Positions 5,302 to 44,844 of a stretch of DNA of 64,000 nt are shown here, piece by piece. Positions within the stretch are counted from its first letter, which is position 1, and the number at the start of each line of letters is the position of its first letter. Both the position numbers and the translations under genes were made by a program. This stretch comes from Lactococcus carnosus. Lineage in GTDB: Bacteria; Bacillota; Bacilli; Lactobacillales; Streptococcaceae. The stretch spans positions 1,488,001-1,552,000 of the forward strand of contig NZ_CP017194.1 in the NCBI RefSeq assembly GCF_006770265.1, given 5' to 3'. The notes under the pieces were generated by a model. It ran no database searches, was not told where the DNA came from, and saw nothing but the letters and a program-made list of their open reading frames with translations.

Positions 5302-6231
5302 ATGTTCACAGAAAAAAGTAGCAACCTGATGGGGACTGTCATCAGGTGTGGTGTTGCGCATCCACAACACCAGGCATTGTTAGATGAAGCATTTAACAGA
5401 TTAAGGGAGTATGAACATATATTTAGTGCAAATGATCCTAGCTCACACTTAATGCAGATTAATCGACAAGCAGGTAGACAAGCAGTCAAGGTACCGCAAG
5501 ACTTGTTTGACCTCATCAAAATCGGTAAGAGGGAAAGCCTCAAAGCAGAGGGGTTGCTCAACATTGCGATTGGTCCCTTAATCAAACTCTGGCATGTTGG
5601 GTTTAAAGACGCGCAGCAGCCTAGTCAGGATAGCATTAATCGCACCTTACCCTTTGTAGATCCTAACAACATCATCTTAGATGAGGAACAGCAGACGATC
5701 TTTTTGAAGGAAAAGGGAATGGAGATTGATTTAGGCGCCCTAGCCAAAGGTTATTTCGCTGATCAAATCATGGCCTATTTTAAAAGTGAGCAGGCAAGTG
5801 CTGGCTTTATCGACTTAGGTGGCAATGTTCTGACTTTTGGTAAGTCGCCTAGAGAAACGTCTGATGCATGGCACATTGGCATTCAAAATCCTGCTCTCCC
5901 GAGAGGCAACAATGCCCTTGTCTTAAAAATAAACGACCTATCCGTCGTAACGAGTGGCATCTATGAACGTAACTTAAAACGAGATGGGCATATTTTCCAT
6001 CATATATTTGATAGTAAAACAGGTTATCCTGTCGTAAATGACCTAGCAAGCTTAACCATCATCTCAAAACAATCATTAGATGGGGAAATATGGACAACTC
6101 AGCTTTTTGGTAAACCAGCCGCTGCTATCATCAAACAAGTCAACCAGATTGAGGGTATCGAAGCGATTGTCATCACAAAAGATAATCAGATGGCTACTAG
6201 TCAAAACGCCATGAAAAATCAGTTACCCTAG
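5302..6231 (+). CDS. apbE: FAD:protein FMN transferase (ApbE family), cytoplasmic form
   Basis: Transfers FMN from FAD onto a Thr of target proteins. Family signatures: FSANDPSSHL near residue 42, DLGALAKGYFAD and FIDLGGN in the middle, SGIYER, and HIFDSKTGYPV before the C terminus. At 309 residues it is somewhat shorter than secreted ApbE and has no signal peptide or lipobox, so it should act in the cytosol. The obvious client is the fumarate reductase 1.7 kb downstream, which has an FMN_bind domain with an SGASVT acceptor site. The 3' end overlaps the convergent LysR gene by 9 bp. The start ATG follows AAGGAAG. Confidence 0.92.
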   Translation: MFTEKSSNLMGTVIRCGVAHPQHQALLDEAFNRLREYEHIFSANDPSSHLMQINRQAGRQAVKVPQDLFDLIKIGKRESLKAEGLLNIAIGPLIKLWHVGFKDAQQPSQDSINRTLPFVDPNNIILDEEQQTIFLKEKGMEIDLGALAKGYFADQIMAYFKSEQASAGFIDLGGNVLTFGKSPRETSDAWHIGIQNPALPRGNNALVLKINDLSVVTSGIYERNLKRDGHIFHHIFDSKTGYPVVNDLASLTIISKQSLDGEIWTTQLFGKPAAAIIKQVNQIEGIEAIVITKDNQMATSQNAMKNQLP

Positions 6232-35001: not shown

Positions 35002-35910
35002 TCACTTCAAGCCATCTGCTTTAGCTAGTTTATCTAACATTTCGATAAATGTTGCTAACTCGTCAGCTAGTACCGCATGCCTTAAATAGGCATATTGAAC
35101 GTAAAATAGAACTTTATCTTCTACCACGAGTGGGATCTTAACGAGTCCTGCCATATCTTGGAAGGGCAGAAAATCGGTCATTAAGGTAATACCAGCATTG
35201 GCCTTCACCATCTGCCCAATCGTGTGCACATCTGAAAATCGGAATAAGACTTGCGCTTTTTTTCTATATTTATCACTCAGATTTTTAAACGCCTTGGTAT
35301 GGACAAAGCCATCCTCAAGTAAGATATATGGATAGTCTAGCGTCTCTTCAAATGTCACCTCTGTCTTTTGGGCTAATGGATTATCCTTAGCAACAAAAAT
35401 ATAAAACTCACGCTGATATAAGAGGTTAACGGTTAGATTAGGATGCGTCAAGGGGACAATACTGCCAATTAGACTAAAGTCTAGTTGACCCGATAGTAGT
35501 TTTGTCAGCAACGACTTTGAGCCACCTGAAACCAAGTCAAATTTTGAGATTAAGTCAACAGTCCCTGGCACTTCCAGTAAGCTTGAAAGCAATCTAGCCC
35601 GAATGATAGGTGGAAAACCGACATAGATTTTATGCTGCTTAGCATGTTCGATGGCACTTTCTACTACCGTAAATTCATCTAGTATATGACTAATATGTGA
35701 CTTTAAAATCTCACCTTCTTGCGTCAATACAACAAAGCGATGTGAGGGATCTTTCTGAATTAAATCGCAGTTGTAATAATCTTCTAAGCGCTTCATGGCA
35801 TGGCTAATCGTTGGCTGGCTGACATTGAATTGCTTGGCAACCTGAGTAAATGATAGTAATTCAGCTAAAGCATTAAAAAAATCAAAATCTCGTAAATTCA
35901 TCTTCCACAA
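35002..35910 (-). CDS. mleR: LysR-type regulator of malolactic fermentation
   Basis: 302 residues with an N-terminal winged helix (RDFDFFNALAELLSFTQVAKQFNVSQPTISHAMKRLEDYY) and a LysR effector domain. It is divergent from mleS with a gap of about 150 bp, which contains a perfect 16-bp dyad between the mleS -35 and -10 elements. MleR activates malolactic genes in response to malate in Lactococcus and Streptococcus mutans (established). Assignment rests on family and position. Confidence 0.9.
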   Translation of the reverse strand: MWKMNLRDFDFFNALAELLSFTQVAKQFNVSQPTISHAMKRLEDYYNCDLIQKDPSHRFVVLTQEGEILKSHISHILDEFTVVESAIEHAKQHKIYVGFPPIIRARLLSSLLEVPGTVDLISKFDLVSGGSKSLLTKLLSGQLDFSLIGSIVPLTHPNLTVNLLYQREFYIFVAKDNPLAQKTEVTFEETLDYPYILLEDGFVHTKAFKNLSDKYRKKAQVLFRFSDVHTIGQMVKANAGITLMTDFLPFQDMAGLVKIPLVVEDKVLFYVQYAYLRHAVLADELATFIEMLDKLAKADGLK

Positions 35911-35978
35911 CTCCTTTTCATTATTCTATCATATTTGAGACAATTTGTTATTCTTAAATCTTATCATATCTAGAAGAT

Positions 35979-36008
35979 TTGACTATAATAACTTATAAGT
36001 TATAGAAT
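35979..36008 (+). promoter_or_regulatory. mleS promoter with LysR-type dyad
   Basis: TTGACT (35979-35984) and TAGAAT (36003-36008). Between them is a perfect palindrome, ATAACTTATAAGTTAT (35988-36003), a probable MleR site. The 18-bp spacing is longer than ideal, as often seen at activator-dependent promoters. A second dyad, TTGTAAA/TTTACAA, follows at 36014-36032. Confidence 0.65.
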
Positions 36009-36058
36009 AAAACTTGTAAATGAGTTTTACAACATTATATTAATTGGAGGATGTACAA

Positions 36059-37681
36059 ATGCGTGCACATGAAATTTTAAACAACCCTTTCTTAAATAAA
36101 GGGACAGCCTTTACAGAGGCCGAAAGAAAATCACTTGGTTTAGTGGGTATTTTACCCCCTTATGTTCAAACAATCGACCAACAAGCTGAACAAACTTACC
36201 AACAGTATTTGACCAAACCTAATGATCTAGAAAAACGTCATTTCTTAATGGAAATTTTCAACACAAACCGGACTTTATTTTATTATTTATTTAATCAACA
36301 TATCGTTGAATTTAATCCAATCGTATATGATCCAACAATTGCGGATACGATTGAAAATTATAGCCATCTATTTGTGGATACACAATATGCTGCCTACCTT
36401 GATATCAACCATCCAGAGAATATCAAAGAAACACTTGAAAATGCTGCTGGAGATAGAAAAATTCGCTTAATCGTTGTCACTGATGCGGAAGGGATTCTGG
36501 GTATTGGCGACTGGGGCACACAAGGTGTTGATATTTCTGTCGGTAAATTGATGATTTATACGGCTGCCGCTGGGATTGATCCTGAATGTGTCTTACCGAT
36601 TGTTATCGATGCAGGGACAACGAGACAAGAACTCTTGAATGATCCCTTGTACTTAGGTAATCATCAAGAACGTCAATATGGTGATGACTACTACGACTTC
36701 ATCGATCAATTCGTTAACACAGCTGAGGATATGTTCCCTAAATTATATTTACACTGGGAAGACTTCGGTCGTTCAAACGCCGCAACTATTTTGAACAAAT
36801 ATAAAAATGTCATCCCAACTTTCAACGATGATATCCAAGGTACAGGTATCGTTGTCCTCGGTGGTATCTTCGGCTCTCTTGATATTACAGGTGAAAAGTT
36901 AACTGATCAAGTCTACCTTTGCTATGGTGGTGGGTCTGCTGGAGCAGGGATATCAAATCGTGTTCATGCAGAAATGGTCAGCGAAGGGCTTTCTGAGGAA
37001 GAAGCCTACAAACGTTTCTTTATGGTTGATAAACAAGGGCTATTATTTGATGATATGACTGACTTAACACCAGCTCAAAAACCATTTGCTAAAAAGCGAA
37101 GTGACTTTGCGAATGCTGATGACATGACAGATTTATTGACAATTATCAAAACTGTCAAACCAACTATTCTGGTTGGGACATCTACTGATCCAGGTGCCTT
37201 CACTAAAGCAGTCGTCGAAGCCATGTGCGCGAATACAGCACGTCCTATTATCTTCCCAATTTCAAATCCAACCAAAAAATTAGAAGCAACAGCGCAACAA
37301 GTAATCGAATGGTCTGACGGTAAAGCCTTCGTCGCAACTGGTGTACCATCAGACACCATCACTTACAAAGGGGTTGACTATCAAATCGGACAAGCTAATA
37401 ACGCCCTAATCTACCCAGGATTGGGACTTGGTATGCTTGCATCAGAAGCCTCACTTTTGACTGACGAAATGATTGGTGCTGCAGCACATTCTCTAAGCGG
37501 TCTCGTTGACTTAACACAAGCTGGTGCACCTGTTCTCCCACCATTCCAATATGTTGCGGATGTCTCTATCAAAGTTGCCGAAGCAGTTGCCAACATGGCC
37601 AAATCACAAGGTCTAGCACAAGCTAAAGAAACAGATATGTCTAAAGCAGTAAAAAACCTCAAATGGTATCCAGAATACTAA
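36059..37681 (+). CDS. mleS: Malolactic enzyme
   Basis: Decarboxylates L-malate to L-lactate with NAD+ and Mn2+. 540 residues from ATG 36059, chosen for GGAGG 8 bases upstream; the open frame starts earlier at a TTG. Malic-enzyme family signatures: [41 protein letters not shown], and the Rossmann-like [12 protein letters not shown]. Length and N terminus fit lactococcal MleS rather than true malic enzyme. The permease gene follows 16 bp downstream, forming the mleS-mleP operon. Confidence 0.95.
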
Positions 37682-37697
37682 GAGGACTTAAACAAAA

Positions 37698-38978
37698 ATG
37701 AAAAAGTTAAAATCAATCAAAATTTCTGGGATTAGCCTCCCACTCTATGCTTTCGTTATGATTGTCCTTGCCATCGTCATCAGCTTAGGCAAACTCCCAC
37801 TCAACATGGTTGGGATCACTTTACTTTTAGTTGCCCTAGGACATCTGCTCTACTATATTGGTGAGAAGCTACCGATTATGAATGCCTATCTTGGTGGGGG
37901 ATCTGTATTTACTCTGATAGGGGCAACGCTTCTGTCCACTTTCCACTTAATCCCGGCACATGTTATTGGTGCTGTTGGTAAATTCATGGGTGGTCAATTC
38001 GGCTTTCTGGATTTCTATATCGCAGCGCTTATCTGTGGGTCTATTTTAGGGATGAATCGCAAACTTTTGATTAAAGCATCAACTAAATTTATCCCCGTTG
38101 CTTTGGTCACGATGGTCGTTGGCTTCTTCGCAGTAGGTTTTATGGGCATGTTACTTGGTAAGGGCTTTGCTCACTCTGTTATGTATGTATCGATGCCGAT
38201 GATGGCTGGTGGTATGGGCGCAGGCATCACGCCGCTCTCTCAAATCTACGCATCTGGCCTATTTCATGGCAATCAAACTGCGATTTTCTCTCAATTAGCA
38301 CCAGCAGTTACTTTCGGGAATATTATCGCCATCATCGGCGCATTATCTATCTCAAAAGTATTTGCCAAAACGAAATACAATGGCCATGGTACGCTGATTA
38401 CAGCGACTAAGGAAGAATTAGCTAAACCCAAAATAGTTTTAGATGCCCAACAAATCGGTGTCGGACTCTTGTTTTCCTTCTCTCTTCTCATGGTTGGTAA
38501 TATCCTCAATAACTTTTTCCCAAAAGTGCATGAGTATGCCTTTATGATTATTATTGTCTTCATCATCAAAGCAACTGATACTGTGCCTAAAAAATTAGAA
38601 GATGCTGTGGTAATGTTCAATCAAGTCATCATGACAAATTTGACCCATGCTGTATTAGCTGGTATCGGGTTGGCTTTGATTGACTTAAAAACACTTGCTT
38701 CTGCTTTTACTTGGCAATTTGTCGTCCTTTGTTTGACAAGTGTCATCGCAATGGGGCTTACCAGCTGGTTCCTAGGTCTAGCCCTCGGTATGTATCCCGT
38801 TGAGACCGCAATCGGTGCTGGTATGATCAACAACTCCATGGGTGGTACAGGTAATATCGCAGTATTATCTGCATCTGATCGTATGGAAATGATTGCTTTT
38901 GCACAGATGGCCAATCGGCTATGTGGCGCAATCGTCCTCATCATGGGTGGTATTCTCATCCGATTCTTCTATCACTAA
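37698..38978 (+). CDS. mleP: Malate permease, 2-hydroxycarboxylate transporter (CitS/MleP) family
   Basis: 426 residues with about eleven membrane segments. The 2HCT signatures are present as two reentrant Gly-rich loops, MAGGMGAGITPLSQIYA and GAGMINNSMGGTGNIAVLSASDRM, the latter with the conserved Arg. It exchanges malate for lactate or imports malate with protons, giving a proton motive force with MleS. It lies directly behind mleS and ends before a strong terminator. Confidence 0.95.
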   Translation: MKKLKSIKISGISLPLYAFVMIVLAIVISLGKLPLNMVGITLLLVALGHLLYYIGEKLPIMNAYLGGGSVFTLIGATLLSTFHLIPAHVIGAVGKFMGGQFGFLDFYIAALICGSILGMNRKLLIKASTKFIPVALVTMVVGFFAVGFMGMLLGKGFAHSVMYVSMPMMAGGMGAGITPLSQIYASGLFHGNQTAIFSQLAPAVTFGNIIAIIGALSISKVFAKTKYNGHGTLITATKEELAKPKIVLDAQQIGVGLLFSFSLLMVGNILNNFFPKVHEYAFMIIIVFIIKATDTVPKKLEDAVVMFNQVIMTNLTHAVLAGIGLALIDLKTLASAFTWQFVVLCLTSVIAMGLTSWFLGLALGMYPVETAIGAGMINNSMGGTGNIAVLSASDRMEMIAFAQMANRLCGAIVLIMGGILIRFFYH

Positions 38979-39019
38979 CCACACTTTAGCTTTAACTTAA
39001 GCTTTAACTAGCAACATCG

Positions 39020-39067
39020 AAAAAGTAATGTCTATCATGTTTTACTCTGATCGACATTACTTTTTTT
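39020..39067 (+). terminator. Terminator of the mleS-mleP operon
   Basis: Arms AAAAAGTAATGTC and GACATTACTTTTT pair perfectly and are followed by more T residues. Confidence 0.88.
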
Positions 39068-39185
39068 ATGTTTTAAGAAAACAGAAAAATCGTATTAGTT
39101 TTTCTACTACTGGATATGATGGGCGTGATGACTATCTAATCGTTATTGATATATTGACAGACTTTCTTAAACTTAGCCTTCTATA

Positions 39186-39214
39186 TTGCTAAATTCGGTA
39201 ATATATGCTAGAAT
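39186..39214 (+). promoter_or_regulatory. Promoter of the kup leader
   Basis: TTGCTA (39186-39191) and TAGAAT (39209-39214), spacer 17 bp with an extended TGC before the -10. Transcription would start about 39221, ten bases before the aptamer. Confidence 0.6.
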
Positions 39215-39230
39215 TAGCATACTTTGTTAG

Positions 39231-39368
39231 TTTATGGGGAGTAGCAGCAGTCTTTTTTGACTGGAATGAATCAACATTTACCCGTATGCCTCACAGCATA
39301 CTGGTTCATTCTTAATTTGCCAGACCAAGAAGATAGGTCTATTTTAGGCTTGATTTTCTTGGTTTTTT
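39231..39368 (+). ncRNA. yybP-ykoY type (Mn2+) riboswitch with overlapping terminator, upstream of kup
   Basis: The aptamer (39231-39331) has the class-defining GGGGAGTAGC (39237-39246), a CAGTC/GACTG hairpin, a long stem GAATGAA/TTCATTC whose internal loop carries TCAACA and whose tip is GTATGC/GCATAC, and the closing GCCAGACC. P1 would pair TTTATGG (39231-39237) with CCAAGAA (39325-39331). An intrinsic terminator (39324-39368) uses ACCAAGAA of that same strand with TTCTTGGT and a T tract. Aptamer and terminator therefore exclude each other, giving an ON switch when the ligand binds. Compared from memory with the lactococcal yybP-ykoY structure; not run against a covariance model. Confidence 0.78.
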
Positions 39369-39393
39369 ACTAGCAAAAAATTTGGAGGAAAAC

Positions 39394-41403
39394 ATGTCTA
39401 AAGGAAATCTCAAATCAAAAGCAACACTCGGCGGTGTGCTAGTTGCGACAGGAATTGTTTATGGCGATATTGGTACTAGTCCACTATACGTTATGAAATC
39501 AATCGTCAGTGGGCAGGGTGGGCTACATAATATTTCAGAGTCATTCTTAATCGGATCGGTTTCACTCATTCTTTGGACCCTCACTTTGTTAACAACTTTT
39601 AAGTATGTCTTAATCGCCTTACAAGCAGATAATCATGGTGAAGGTGGTATTTTTTCGCTCTTTACCCTGGTACGTAAGCAAGCTAAGTTTCTGACGATCG
39701 TGGCGATGATTGGGGGTGCAGCATTACTTGCTGATGGGGTCCTGACGCCAGCGATGACCGTGACGACCGCTATAGAAGGACTAAAAGAAATCCCCGCCTT
39801 TACATCGGTATTCGGCAACAGTCAAACTGTCATCGTGGTCATTACTTTAGCAATCATTACCCTACTATTTTTCATACAGCGCTTTGGCACAGATAAAATC
39901 GGTAAAGTGTTTGGCCCAATCATGTTCCTATGGTTTACTTTTATCGGCCTTATTGGGCTGGCAAATATGATGTCTAATTTGAATGTGCTTCGTGCCATTA
40001 ATCCTTACTACGCCTTTCATGTCTTATTTAGTGCTGACAATAAGGCTGGCCTATTAATCTTAGGTAGTGTATTTTTGGCTACAACAGGAGCAGAAGCCTT
40101 ATATTCAGATTTAGGACATGTTGGCAAGTATAATATCTATGCCAGCTGGCCTTATATCAAAATCAGCTTATTACTCAGCTACTTTGGACAGGCAGCCTTC
40201 CTATTGAGAGCCAAGGAATTGCCAAACTATCACTTAATGGATGATTTCAATCCCTTTTTCAATATGATTCCAGATAGCTTAATGCTAGTTAGCGTTATTT
40301 TTGCCAGTGTTGCTGCAATCATCGCTTCACAAGCGCTGATTACTGGCGCATTTACGCTCGTTTCAGAAGCTATGAAACTCCGTCTACTCCCCAAATTAAA
40401 AATTCTCTACCCTGGTAATACACGTGGACAGATGTATCTGCCCCTAGTGAATGCCTTATTATGGATACTCACCAGTTTAGTCGTGATCATTTTTAAAACC
40501 AGTCACAAAATGGAATCAGCTTATGGTCTAGCCATCACGGTTACCATGCTGATGACCACCATTTTATTGCATTATTTCTTAAAGATAAATCATTGGAACA
40601 GAATCGTATCCAACATCACCATTCTCTTGTTCTTAACGATTGAAACGATCTTTTTCATGTCAAGTCTAGCTAAGTTTTTCAATGGTGGTTATATTGCCAT
40701 TTTAATTGCCATCGCCATATTGAGTGTCATGTATATCTGGGAAAAGGGGAATATCATTCAAGAAAATATGTTGAAGACCCTAGATTTGACGGATTATGTC
40801 GAGCAAATTAGACAATTAAAATATGATCGCAACTATGATTTATATCAAACGAACTTGGTCTATCTGACAACCCATATGAAGGGAGATCGGATTGAAGAAG
40901 GCATCATCTATTCTATTTTAGACAAACATCCAAAAAAAGCTTCCGTCTATTGGTTTGTCAATATTGAAGTGACAGATGAACCTTACACCAAAGAATATAC
41001 GGTTGACATGATGGACACTGATTTTATTGTCATCATAAAACTCTACTTAGGCTTCCGAGTGAAACAAGATATTAATATTTATATCAATCATATCGTAAAA
41101 TCACTCATTGCTGATGGTGACTTACAAGCCCAGTATCAAAAATATTCGATCAAACCAGGTCGTAATATCGGTGACTTCCAGTATGTGCTCATTCAAGAAA
41201 GGCTGTCAAATCACCTAGACATGTCTAAATTTGATAGACAAATCATGCAAGCTAAACTCTTTATCAAACGCTTTACCACAACACCTGATAAATGGTTTGG
41301 ACTTGAATTTAGTGATACAACTTACGAAGTCGTCCCCTTAATGATTGGTAAGGATCCTGAAATACAGTTAATCAAACGTCAAACTGAAACGCTGCAACCT
41401 TAA
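39394..41403 (+). CDS. kup: Potassium uptake protein Kup
   Basis: 669 residues from ATG 39394, chosen for GGAGG 6 bases upstream. KUP/HAK family: ATGIVYGDIGTSPLYV near the N terminus, ALQADNHGEGGIFSLFTL with conserved acidic residues, ADGVLTPAMTVTTAIEGL, TTGAEALYSDLGHVGKYNI, about twelve membrane segments and a cytosolic C-terminal domain (about 430-669). Imports K+ with protons. The gene sits behind a manganese-type riboswitch, unusual for a K+ transporter, and faces the c-di-AMP synthase operon; Kup proteins of Lactococcus are inhibited by c-di-AMP (established). Confidence 0.96.
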   Translation: MSKGNLKSKATLGGVLVATGIVYGDIGTSPLYVMKSIVSGQGGLHNISESFLIGSVSLILWTLTLLTTFKYVLIALQADNHGEGGIFSLFTLVRKQAKFLTIVAMIGGAALLADGVLTPAMTVTTAIEGLKEIPAFTSVFGNSQTVIVVITLAIITLLFFIQRFGTDKIGKVFGPIMFLWFTFIGLIGLANMMSNLNVLRAINPYYAFHVLFSADNKAGLLILGSVFLATTGAEALYSDLGHVGKYNIYASWPYIKISLLLSYFGQAAFLLRAKELPNYHLMDDFNPFFNMIPDSLMLVSVIFASVAAIIASQALITGAFTLVSEAMKLRLLPKLKILYPGNTRGQMYLPLVNALLWILTSLVVIIFKTSHKMESAYGLAITVTMLMTTILLHYFLKINHWNRIVSNITILLFLTIETIFFMSSLAKFFNGGYIAILIAIAILSVMYIWEKGNIIQENMLKTLDLTDYVEQIRQLKYDRNYDLYQTNLVYLTTHMKGDRIEEGIIYSILDKHPKKASVYWFVNIEVTDEPYTKEYTVDMMDTDFIVIIKLYLGFRVKQDINIYINHIVKSLIADGDLQAQYQKYSIKPGRNIGDFQYVLIQERLSNHLDMSKFDRQIMQAKLFIKRFTTTPDKWFGLEFSDTTYEVVPLMIGKDPEIQLIKRQTETLQP

Positions 41404-41486: not shown

Positions 41487-42842
41487 TTAATCTATACCGA
41501 TTTCGGCACTGACGACGGCTACGATGGTGTCAACATAGTCGTTCACTTCTTCATCAGTTGGTGCTTCAGCCATCACACGTAAGAGTGGCTCTGTACCGCT
41601 TGGGCGAACGAGGATACGGCCATTTCCTGCCATCTTCTCTTCCATTTCTCCAATAACAGCAGCGATAGCCGGTACTTCCATGGCCTTAGCTTTCATGCTA
41701 TTTTCAACACGAACATTGACTAATTTTTGTGGGTAAATCTTAACTTCACTGGCTAATTCAGATAATTTTTTACCCGTTTCACGCATCACGTTCACCAATA
41801 ATATCGCTGATGCTTGACCGTCTCCAGTTGTGTTATTGTCCAGATAGATAATATGTCCTGACTGTTCACCACCAAAATTATAGCCATTTTGCTTCATTTC
41901 TTCAACAACATAGCGATCACCAACGCCAGTAATCACCGTATTGATGTTAGCTGTCTCTAATGCCTTATGGAAGCCTAAATTAGACATAACGGTGGTGACG
42001 ACAGTGTCTTTGGTCAACAATCCCTTATCTTGTAAGTATTTACCGATGATAAACATAATCTTATCACCATCAACAATGGCACCCGTTTCATCTACCGCAA
42101 TTAAGCGATCGCCATCGCCATCGAAAGCTAAGCCTAAATCTGAATGCGTTTCAAGTACTTCTTTAGCAAGGTTTTCTGGGTGAGTTGAGCCAACACCTAA
42201 ATTAATATTCAAGCCATCAGGTGTTTCACCAATCACATGGATGTCTGCAGATAAATCACTGAAAACAGTTCTTGCACTCGTACAAGTTGCCCCATTCGCC
42301 GTGTCTAAGGTGATTTTGAAGCCTTCAAAACTACCATCTGCAGTATTTTTTAGAAACTCATCATACTTTCGAACAGCCTCAGCATAATCATGCAAGACAC
42401 CTAAGCCTTGAGCAGAAGGTCGAGGTAGTGCATCTATTTCAGCGTCAAGCAAGGCTTCAATTTCAAGCTCTTGGCTATCTGCCAATTTAAACCCGTCTCC
42501 TCCAAAAAATTTAATGCCATTGTCTAAAGCAGGATTGTGGCTGGCAGAAATCATAACACCAGCAGAAACTGAATCTTTTTTCACTAGATAAGCAACACCA
42601 GGTGTCGCAATAACGCCTAAGTCAAATACTTCTATACCAACACTTAAAAGCCCTGAAATCAAAGATGTGCCTAGCATCTGACCTGAAATCCTTGTATCTC
42701 TTGCGACATATACTTTTGGTGTCTCAATCTCATGCTGAGATAGCACATACCCACCAAAGCGACCAAGTTTAAAAGCCATTTCTGGTGTTAAGTCAACATT
42801 TGCTTCGCCACGAACACCATCAGTTCCAAAATACTTACCCAT
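41487..42842 (-). CDS. glmM: Phosphoglucosamine mutase
   Basis: Converts glucosamine 6-phosphate to glucosamine 1-phosphate for cell-wall precursor synthesis. 451 residues: [12 protein letters not shown] at the N terminus, VMISASHNP with phospho-Ser101, metal loop AFDGDGDRL near residue 240, GGEQSGHII and [12 protein letters not shown] at the C terminus. It is the last gene of the conserved cdaA-cdaR-glmM operon. GlmM is reported to bind and inhibit CdaA in Lactococcus and Bacillus. A 165-bp gap without a clear signal separates it from cdaR. Confidence 0.97.
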
Positions 42843-43007
42843 TATTATCTCTTTTCAATTGTTTAGTTAATTAGCATGACACAAGAAAATTAGTGCAAAT
42901 GAGCTGCACTAGTTTCACTATAGCCCTAAATTTCAAGTACTGGTTTTACGCATTTACCTACCATAAAATCAGTTATCTAATTTTTTCTTCATTTAACCTA
43001 TTATAAC

Positions 43008-43967
43008 TTATTTTTTAGTTGGTGTCACTGTTACCTCTATTTGATTTGGTGAGGTCGTTATATTGTCTGCAGAAAGTGGTACCTTAATCACGGTTTCTTT
43101 AGTAATATCAGTCACATCGATATTAGCCGTGATATTGGAAATATTATCAATATATTTTTGCTCACCTGAAATGGTTACAGTATCTTTTGCTAGTTTAAAG
43201 GCGTAGTCTTTTATTGAACTATCTTTTTTACCCGTAATTTGACCAACAACAGGTACCGTCTTATTTGGTAAGCCAACATCAACTTGCATCTTCACAAAAG
43301 TTGGCGATAACTTAGTTGGTAAAACCTTACCTGAACTATCTACTGCTCTTAAATAGACTTTCCCCGAAAAATTATTATTCAGCATGACATCACTAGGCAA
43401 TACGGCTTCAACTCTAGCAATTTGTGTGATAATAGAGGCACCAGAAGTGACTTTAACCGTTTTCTTATCCGTACTGATTCCTGTTAATTTATAGCCTTCT
43501 GGTAATTGTTTCTCCGAAACAACCGGTGTAATATCGAATGTTTTACTTGCTTTTTTCTCTATCGTAACTGAGATATTACCTGGATCAACCTGCGCATTAA
43601 CCCCTGTTGCCAACTCAACAACTCGAATCGGTACCTCAGCTGTCCCTTCTTTGGCTTTACTCAAGTCCGCTACTAGGTGAAAACTTCTTGTATCTGGCGT
43701 TTTTTCAGCTGTCAGCCGAACCTGATTATAGGACGTTAGATAAACATTAGCAGTGCCGTCATAACCTGAGACAAAGTAACGTTCATTGTCATATTTCAAG
43801 TCAATCGGCATATCATAAATTGTTGTAGAATGTGTTTCTGATGTATTGTTACGATCACTTGAATTTTTTAATAAGACGGTATTTGCATTAAAAAATAAAA
43901 TAATCGCAAAGAATATACTGATTAAAATATAAATGACTTTAGAGGACAAAAAATCTTTATTTTTCAT
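43008..43967 (-). CDS. cdaR: CdaR (YbbR-domain regulator of diadenylate cyclase)
   Basis: 319 residues from ATG 43967 (MKNKDFLSSKVIYI), chosen because AGAGG stands before it; the longer frame would reach deeper into cdaA. One N-terminal membrane segment (about 10-30) is followed by extracellular YbbR repeats (about 40-320), visible as repeated patterns of the VPVRVVELATG / VPVVGQITG type. CdaR modulates CdaA activity at the membrane. Its start overlaps the end of cdaA by 11 bp, so the two are co-translated. Confidence 0.92.
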   Translation of the reverse strand: MKNKDFLSSKVIYILISIFFAIILFFNANTVLLKNSSDRNNTSETHSTTIYDMPIDLKYDNERYFVSGYDGTANVYLTSYNQVRLTAEKTPDTRSFHLVADLSKAKEGTAEVPIRVVELATGVNAQVDPGNISVTIEKKASKTFDITPVVSEKQLPEGYKLTGISTDKKTVKVTSGASIITQIARVEAVLPSDVMLNNNFSGKVYLRAVDSSGKVLPTKLSPTFVKMQVDVGLPNKTVPVVGQITGKKDSSIKDYAFKLAKDTVTISGEQKYIDNISNITANIDVTDITKETVIKVPLSADNITTSPNQIEVTVTPTKK

Positions 43968-44844
43968 TTCCCTTACCTCTCTTTGCAAGTAATTTAGTCA
44001 GAAGACTCGTTGTTTTTTTAGATGTGGCCGTATCCTCTAGATGCTTAATCAGAAAATCATGAAACTCACTTTTTGATAAGTCTGAATAGAACTCACCATT
44101 TTCTGTAATTGACATACCACCTGTCTCTTCGGAAACGATCAGCGTGATGGCATCAGAAACTTCTGATATACCGATAGCAGCACGATGTCGCGTCCCAAAT
44201 TCTTTAGAAATTTTACCATCTTCTGTTAAGGGAAGATAGGCTGATGTCACCGCAATTTTATCGCCTTGAACAATGACTGCCCCATCATGGAGCGGTGTAT
44301 TCGGAATAAAGATATTAATCAAGAGCTCTGCTGAGATATCTGCATCCAGTTTAATACCTGTCGATACAAATTCTTCTAATGTCTGTGACTGTTCGATCAC
44401 AATCAAAGCACCAATTTTGCGCTCACTCATATAATAAAATGCTTTTTCATAAGCCTTAATATAGCTAGTGCGCTTTACATTACGCTCTGACGATCCTAAA
44501 TTAAGTAAATTAGTCGTCCGGCCAAGACTCTCAAGACCACGACGAATCTCGGGTTGAAAGATGATGACCGCAGCAATCACCCCATAGGTAACAACTTGAT
44601 TGAGTAACCACTCGAAAGTCCCTAACCCTAGCCAACCGCTGACAACTTTAAGCATGATAAATAAGAGGACACCGCGCACTAATGTCATCATTTTAGTGCC
44701 TTGGACACTCCTTAAGGCCTTATAAATTAAGAAAGTAATCAAGGAAATATCCGCAACAGCGATAAATAGTCGCCATGGGGTTAAATTCAATTGAATTATT
44801 TCCTGCCAATACTGTAAATTAAAAATCTGATTGAAATCATTCAT
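43957..44844 (-). CDS. cdaA: Diadenylate cyclase CdaA
   Basis: Makes c-di-AMP from two ATP. 295 residues with three N-terminal membrane segments (about 25-45, 55-75, 80-97) and the DAC domain (about 110-270): DGA at 187-189 in PLHDGAVIVQGD, and RHR at 219-221 in GTRHRAAIGISE. Both motifs are intact. The ATG lacks a ribosome-binding site and lies only 6 bases after an extended -10 element, suggesting a leaderless mRNA. c-di-AMP controls K+ uptake, including Kup, whose gene is convergent. Confidence 0.96.
   Translation of the reverse strand: MNDFNQIFNLQYWQEIIQLNLTPWRLFIAVADISLITFLIYKALRSVQGTKMMTLVRGVLLFIMLKVVSGWLGLGTFEWLLNQVVTYGVIAAVIIFQPEIRRGLESLGRTTNLLNLGSSERNVKRTSYIKAYEKAFYYMSERKIGALIVIEQSQTLEEFVSTGIKLDADISAELLINIFIPNTPLHDGAVIVQGDKIAVTSAYLPLTEDGKISKEFGTRHRAAIGISEVSDAITLIVSEETGGMSITENGEFYSDLSKSEFHDFLIKHLEDTATSKKTTSLLTKLLAKRGKGNEK

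Follow-up and report, generated by a model that had tools for sequence, protein, structure and literature searches.

We report that the kup gene of Lactococcus carnosus, which encodes a KUP-family K+ importer, is preceded by an RNA leader that, judged from its sequence, is probably an old and selected yybP-ykoY-type riboswitch through which Mn2+ would switch transcription of the importer on. The leader lies in the window, the stretch of 64,000 nucleotides (nt) of contig NZ_CP017194.1 that we analyzed; coordinates are positions in the window, and all elements of the leader are on the forward strand. The anatomy of the aptamer, its conserved core, covariation, the overlap of helix P1 with an intrinsic terminator and the linkage to kup across four family groups can all be read from the alignments and searches described here.

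Structure of the kup leader

The leader extends for approximately 170 nt from a candidate promoter, between a 2-hydroxycarboxylate transporter gene (PF03390) and kup. As originally predicted, the downstream gene (39,394 to 41,403, with its ATG at 39,394 and a Shine-Dalgarno sequence, GGAGG, at 39,384 to 39,388) is kup, matching PF02705 with an E-value of 2.4e-145 and PF22776 with 1.6e-12. A consensus scan gave four candidate promoters where 1.4 were expected; one of them, at 39,186 to 39,214 (TTGCTA, 17 nt, and TAGAAT preceded by TG), is also kept in L. piscium DSM 6634. Its candidate -10 element is spanned by a perfect inverted repeat, TATGCTA-GAAT-TAGCATA (39,204 to 39,221), which is kept in L. 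piscium DSM 6634, less so in G038, and is possibly an operator.

The aptamer occupies 39,226 to 39,336, the extent matched by both of the covariance models that we built, R1 (69.3 bits) and R2 (41.2 bits). The 5' strand of P1, TTTATGG (39,231 to 39,237), has one A.A mismatch against the 3' strand. It runs into the L1 motif, GGGGAGTAGC (39,236 to 39,245), the first GG of which is paired in P1 while the last GC pairs with the GC at 39,319 to 39,320; the class motif within it, GGGGAGUA (39,236 to 39,243), has at most one change in 34 rows of alignment A2. The P2 hairpin, CAGTC/GACTG (39,248 to 39,263), is followed by the P3 arm (39,264 to 39,311), composed of P3a, GAATGAATCA/TGGTTCATTC, and P3b, GTATGC/GCATAC. 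The internal loop TCAACA (39,271 to 39,276) overlaps the 10-nt L3 loop, ACATTTACCC (39,274 to 39,283), in which A39276 is the counterpart of the invariant Mn-sensing adenine (A41 in L. lactis, A48 in Xanthomonas oryzae). Next comes GCCAGACC at 39,319 to 39,326, part of a segment (39,319 to 39,331) made up of GCCAGA and the P1 3' strand, CCAAGAA (39,325 to 39,331).

The P1 3' strand is common to the aptamer and to a predicted intrinsic terminator, a hairpin and T run at 39,322 to 39,368. In the predicted fold 39,322 to 39,365 are paired, with -20.6 kcal/mol for 39,318 to 39,370 and six T residues at 39,363 to 39,368; the dual role that had been proposed for CCAAGAA, as P1 3' strand and terminator 5' arm, is thus borne out by the fold. 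A simple terminator scan listed no terminator at the kup leader. The leader folds far below shuffled sequences (z = -4.99, reached by 0 of 200 shuffles). Static folding strongly prefers the terminator (-48.4 kcal/mol, versus -31.2 kcal/mol with P1 forced), and switching would therefore need kinetics and the aid of a ligand. The P4 hairpin, which is present in the crystal structures as part of a four-way junction, is absent from the window aptamer; because 32 of the 38 exporter-type aptamers from the order lack it too (columns 107 to 120 of alignment A3), we did not treat it as class-defining.

Class membership

The Rfam model of the class, RF00080, matches the leader with 28.7 bits (E = 4.5e-6, for 531 bases searched with all 4,227 families), and in a search of the whole genome the kup leader (E = 4.3e-6) is its sole match at E ≤ 10. 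The original prediction, which the lack of a significant covariance-model match would have refuted, survives this check by E-value but not at the RF00080 gathering score of 45 bits; at gathering score, Rfam returned nothing over the window. All 18 named kup loci in which we found an aptamer fall short of that score, and in group g9 only two of eight genomes reach it, with matches that lie before P-type ATPase genes. At E ≤ 0.05 RF00080 found 2 of 14 further kup leaders and 0 of 6 controls, and this weak result led us to build R2.

R1, the first joint model, has the window in its training set together with 12 of the 18 named kup loci, so that its matches to those 12 are by construction. R2 was built from 38 aptamers that R1 finds before non-kup genes and holds no kup leader; its rows were aligned with R1, so that kup leaders influence the alignment alone and not the sequences. 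The genes downstream of these 38 aptamers were confirmed by Pfam in 11 cases (ten P-type ATPases and one TerC); the other 27 we took to be P-type ATPases from inspection of their proteins.

R2 matches the window leader with an E-value of 2.9e-9. Of 80 named kup loci it matched 18, identical to those found with R1, and every one of these matches lies immediately upstream of kup; a single additional match in 600 kb scored no better than noise (13.3 bits, E = 2.7). Five of the 18 are from Lactococcus (piscium, laudensis, plantarum, raffinolactis and reticulitermitis) and 13 from Enterococcus, where the carriers include E. avium, E. raffinosus, E. malodoratus and relatives, E. sulfureus and E. phoeniculicola. 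R2 also found all 34 kup leaders with an R1 match, a set that includes a few genomes also among the 18 loci, and none of 16 leaders without one, drawn from 107. Two weak matches were taken as noise: the second one that R2 gave in the window (5,394 to 5,459; 13.9 bits, E = 0.19) and the third that R1 gave across the genome (17.6 bits, E = 0.47).

By core, predicted fold and model, the kup leader belongs to the yybP-ykoY class, and it lies outside RF00080 as Rfam delimits that class. The original observation holds, and the arrangement extends beyond the single locus on which it was made. Since the kup loci fall below the Rfam gathering score, routine annotation would miss the kup leaders that we tested.

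Distribution and history

In a census of 395 Lactobacillales genomes, R1 matched 346 (E ≤ 0.001), and a KUP gene was found in 178 (E ≤ 1e-20). At least 43 of the 150 kup genes listed have a same-strand aptamer no more than 1 kb upstream, in addition to the window's own; 33 were found by coordinates among the matches listed, and 10 after searching the upstream stretches of the other 117. Two kup genes outside the 150, L291 (confirmed by Pfam) and L294, also carry the aptamer. The 43 belong to groups f3 (32), f8 (8) and f2 (3), to which the window adds f1, making four family groups; within f1 the aptamer precedes kup in G005, from another genus, and in G038, from the window's genus, with matching leaders in G015 and G031. 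Among the kup genes listed for the remaining groups, no aptamer was found.

We placed aptamer presence on a Kup tree of 63 rows, comprising the window and 62 of the 80 named loci (18 Bacteroidota were left out). Presence changes four times, and all 19 carriers fall in one supported set of 31, which also holds 12 Enterococcus rows without the aptamer. Possible long-branch artefacts are flagged at some joins in the tree, all of them outside the set of 31. We prefer a history of one old gain and a few losses, while the aptamer may instead have been gained repeatedly inside the supported set.

The genome (2.16 Mb) is close to L. piscium, and its Kup shares 99% identity with the L. piscium DSM 6634 protein. 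The census found one KUP gene in it; its other transport genes include one of the TrkH family and one Nramp. A second aptamer (L142; G000:C1:2045558-2045658, reverse strand) lies upstream of a P-type cation ATPase gene and is not listed by RF00080 at E ≤ 10 in the genome search. Elsewhere in the order, in group f7, an aptamer of the class (L301, 89 to 210) precedes a TerC-family gene (PF03741).

Proposed mechanism and ligand

Because the P1 3' strand doubles as the start of the terminator, ligand should switch kup on. With ligand absent, CCAAGAA would be taken up by the terminator hairpin, and transcription would end before kup. Mn2+, with Mg2+ at an adjacent site, would dock L1 on L3 and stabilize P1; the stabilized helix would then keep CCAAGAA with its 5' partner, no terminator would form, and the K+ importer would be made. 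We infer that Mn2+ is the ligand, that its binding drives read-through, and that the cell benefits from high K+ under high divalent metal. The benefit might be one of charge balance, or of keeping pace with metal-dependent c-di-AMP turnover, for which a metal-dependent c-di-AMP phosphodiesterase is a conceivable link. Counting against this mechanism, K+ import is not known to be a means of relieving Mn2+ stress.

This mechanism is taken from that of a relative in L. lactis, as described in passages of PMC11087558 and PMC6754395. The L. lactis yoaB riboswitch (PDB 4Y1I) resembles the window leader in its L1 motif, its Mn-sensing adenine in L3, its ON logic, and a switch helix, P1.1, that is common to an intrinsic terminator. 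It differs in that its target is an exporter gene rather than kup; moreover, the window aptamer has no P4 hairpin, a mismatch in P1 and a 10-nt L3. In the sections of PMC6754395 and PMC9190785 on the L. lactis and X. oryzae structures, five phosphate oxygens where L1 meets L3, together with N7 of the invariant adenine, form the Mn2+ site, and L3 reads UCAAUUC and ACAUACU, respectively. The X. oryzae aptamer, from another phylum, thus has a 7-nt L3, although like the window it begins this loop with ACAU and has the invariant adenine.

The P-type ATPase leaders of Lactobacillales, the one in this genome (L142) among them, share with the window the aptamer class and, by eye, the kind of terminator platform, and differ in their target and in an L3 of 7 to 8 nt where measured. 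Several groups of them have GGGAGTAAC...GTGAGAC in place of GGGGAGTAGC...GCxAGAC. In the census, ATPase-type aptamers of several groups, for example L285, L292 and L300, have GGGAGTAAC...GTGAGAC at the position of GGGAGTAGC...GCGAGAC in others such as L005 and L013; this is a compensated G-C to A-U change in the short helix adjoining L1.

In L3, 54 of the 60 distinct kup aptamers that were parsed have A as the third base and read ACA. The other six, from groups f2 and f8 (L146, L147, L148, L149, L180 and L185), read ACUA with an 8-nt loop. Their sequence fits one U inserted before the adenine, though it could also be that the adenine itself has changed; ATPase aptamers from four of the six genomes (L162, L163, L284 and L287) keep ACA or CCA. 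Among 61 kup aptamers, L3 has 7 nt in 39, 8 in 12 and 10 in 7, the window being one of the 7 (L219 was unparsed and reads ACA by eye, L049 yielded no length, and the 5 nt measured for L158 are doubtful). In the exporter-type aptamers, of which 35 of 38 were measurable, it has 7 nt in 31 and 8 nt in 4; the sole row without A as third L3 base, L288, was mis-parsed and reads CCA by eye. The enlargement of L3 in some kup aptamers, including the window's, makes a shifted specificity possible. The aptamer core argues for Mn2+, while the loop changes leave room for such a shift, and either the ACUA reading or the 10-nt L3 could mean another ion. A review (PMC7266159) raises the possibility that certain yybP variants respond to divalent ions other than Mn2+, which would account for gene contexts inconsistent with Mn2+.

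It is on the unlikely side that the kup aptamers keep the yybP-ykoY fold and answer another cation state, a high divalent-to-K+ ratio signifying K+ shortage. K+ would be a competitor of the pair of divalent ions bound where L1 docks on L3; as K+ falls, docking would hold, P1 would form and kup would be on, giving feedback free of c-di-AMP. Such a sensor would naturally control a K+ importer, the ON logic fits, and L3 is enlarged or altered in part of the kup aptamers, with 8 nt in 12 and 10 nt in 7 of the 61. Furthermore, c-di-AMP riboswitches are nearly absent from the order (2 of 395 genomes in our searches), and a passage of PMC10243994 states that lactic acid bacteria do not appear to have them. 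Mg2+ and K+ levels change inversely during osmoadaptation of B. subtilis, as noted in part of PMC8844918, and the reading as a divalent-versus-K+ gauge is therefore worth testing. Against it, L1 and the Mn-sensing adenine are unchanged in most kup aptamers, and no core change was seen that sets all of them apart from exporter-type aptamers. We find it rather doubtful that the kup-linked aptamers of Lactobacillales form a distinct variant group whose docking core would read the balance of divalent metal and K+ as a K+-shortage switch. The K+ target leaves us with two accounts: K+ import is needed when Mn2+ is in excess, or the aptamer gauges divalent metal against K+.

Conservation of the proposed switch

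In 32 distinct kup aptamers, 94.3% of cells are paired, in an alignment that was fitted to the structure. Ten of 20 pairs changed on both sides (6.7 in shuffles, 0 of 500 reaching ten), and the covariation score was 0.327, against 0.149 in shuffles (0 of 500). The number of further pair types in these aptamers was no better than in shuffles (267 of 500), nor was the number of pairs changed on both sides in the joint alignment (105 of 500).

We examined P1 and the terminator in 61 distinct kup leaders, from 70 kup loci picked by motif and therefore a subset of all kup loci. At least five of eight P1 pairs are present in all 61, and 58 have a terminator stem that opens with the P1 3' strand and leads into a T run, an arrangement that occurred in 31 of 3,050 shuffles that preserve base composition only. 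(A looser terminator test also matched 709 of the 3,050 and was replaced by this stricter score.) Related kup leaders thus keep P1 and the terminator, the loss of which would have refuted the original prediction, and the pattern is that of ON-type terminator logic as far as sequence can indicate it. One of the three exceptions, L158, has the hairpin with a T-poor tail. In the other two, from genus g20 of group f3 (L157, 409 to 508, and L282, 603 to 702), AACTTAGGAGGA, located at the Shine-Dalgarno sequence ahead of the start codon, can by eye pair with the P1 strand CCTAAGTT; these leaders can be read as a change from a transcriptional to a translational platform with the ON logic kept.

These data bear on the view that the leader is a relic, the aptamer having been inherited with kup and the leader having become constitutive here through loss of switching. 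The A.A mismatch in P1, the weak RF00080 score and the enlarged L3 would be in keeping with decay. P1, P3 and the terminator are nonetheless kept, with P1 and P3 covarying over four family groups; L. piscium DSM 6634 and G038 retain the elements in leaders that differ in sequence; and two kup leaders appear to have swapped the expression platform and retained the ON logic. We regard a relic as very unlikely.

Relation to c-di-AMP

In Bacillus, K+ importer genes are controlled by the ydaO-yuaA c-di-AMP riboswitch, which has OFF logic. The kup leader is like it in being an RNA switch before a K+ importer gene; it is unlike it in Rfam family and logic. If such a riboswitch controlled kup here, it would accord with the proximity of cdaA and with the binding of c-di-AMP by L. 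lactis Kup proteins, reported in part of PMC10243994. However, RF00379 has no match in the window's genome at E ≤ 0.001 and none in 38,970 to 39,500 at E ≤ 10, neither of the two genomes of the order with a match is among those listed with a KUP gene, and the anatomy is that of yybP-ykoY. This reading is refuted at the sequence level, within the sensitivity of the model, and we give it next to no weight; the connection to c-di-AMP that the original prediction drew finds no support at the RNA level.

That prediction also placed kup next to the c-di-AMP synthase gene. A CdaA gene (PF02457) is indeed nearby, approximately 2.5 kb past the end of kup, but it is convergent with two genes between, so that kup is outside its operon, and the nearness is only local. 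Genes for a phosphoglucomutase-family protein (GlmM-like), YbbR (CdaR-like) and CdaA stand in a row on the reverse strand at 41,487 to 44,844, convergent with kup. On the other side, at 35,002 to 38,978, kup is adjoined by genes for a LysR regulator, a malic-type enzyme and the 2HCT transporter, probably a malate or citrate cluster.

Finally, although the matched motifs are short, a chance resemblance near an ordinary terminator is refuted by the E-value of 2.9e-9 with a kup-free model and by recurrence at kup, and we see practically no likelihood in it.

Significance

The yybP-ykoY class is known, and its linkage to kup is possibly new: we did not find it in a literature search that did not extend to the founding papers (Dambach 2015, Price 2015), which is not to say that it is absent from print. 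In the portions of the literature consulted, the targets of the class are Mn2+ exporter genes, tellurium-resistance-type transporters and other putative cation transporters, and potassium transporters appear in the part of PMC3766115 concerned as a category of RNA-regulated genes not tied to yybP-ykoY. The same search found no tests of a Mn2+-K+ link.

A K+ importer under this aptamer in four family groups implies either a link between Mn2+ and K+ or a variant aptamer for another ion. The ATPase and kup aptamers of one genome are a built-in pair that makes the remark on variants in the passage of PMC7266159 directly testable, and studies of yybP variants that bind other ions are announced in that review. 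A K+-shortage switch, if true, would be a manganese-sensor fold reused in an order almost devoid of c-di-AMP riboswitches. The aptamer recurs before kup in many lactic acid bacteria and related organisms, a pattern suggesting that K+ uptake is connected with metal sensing in an unexpected way.
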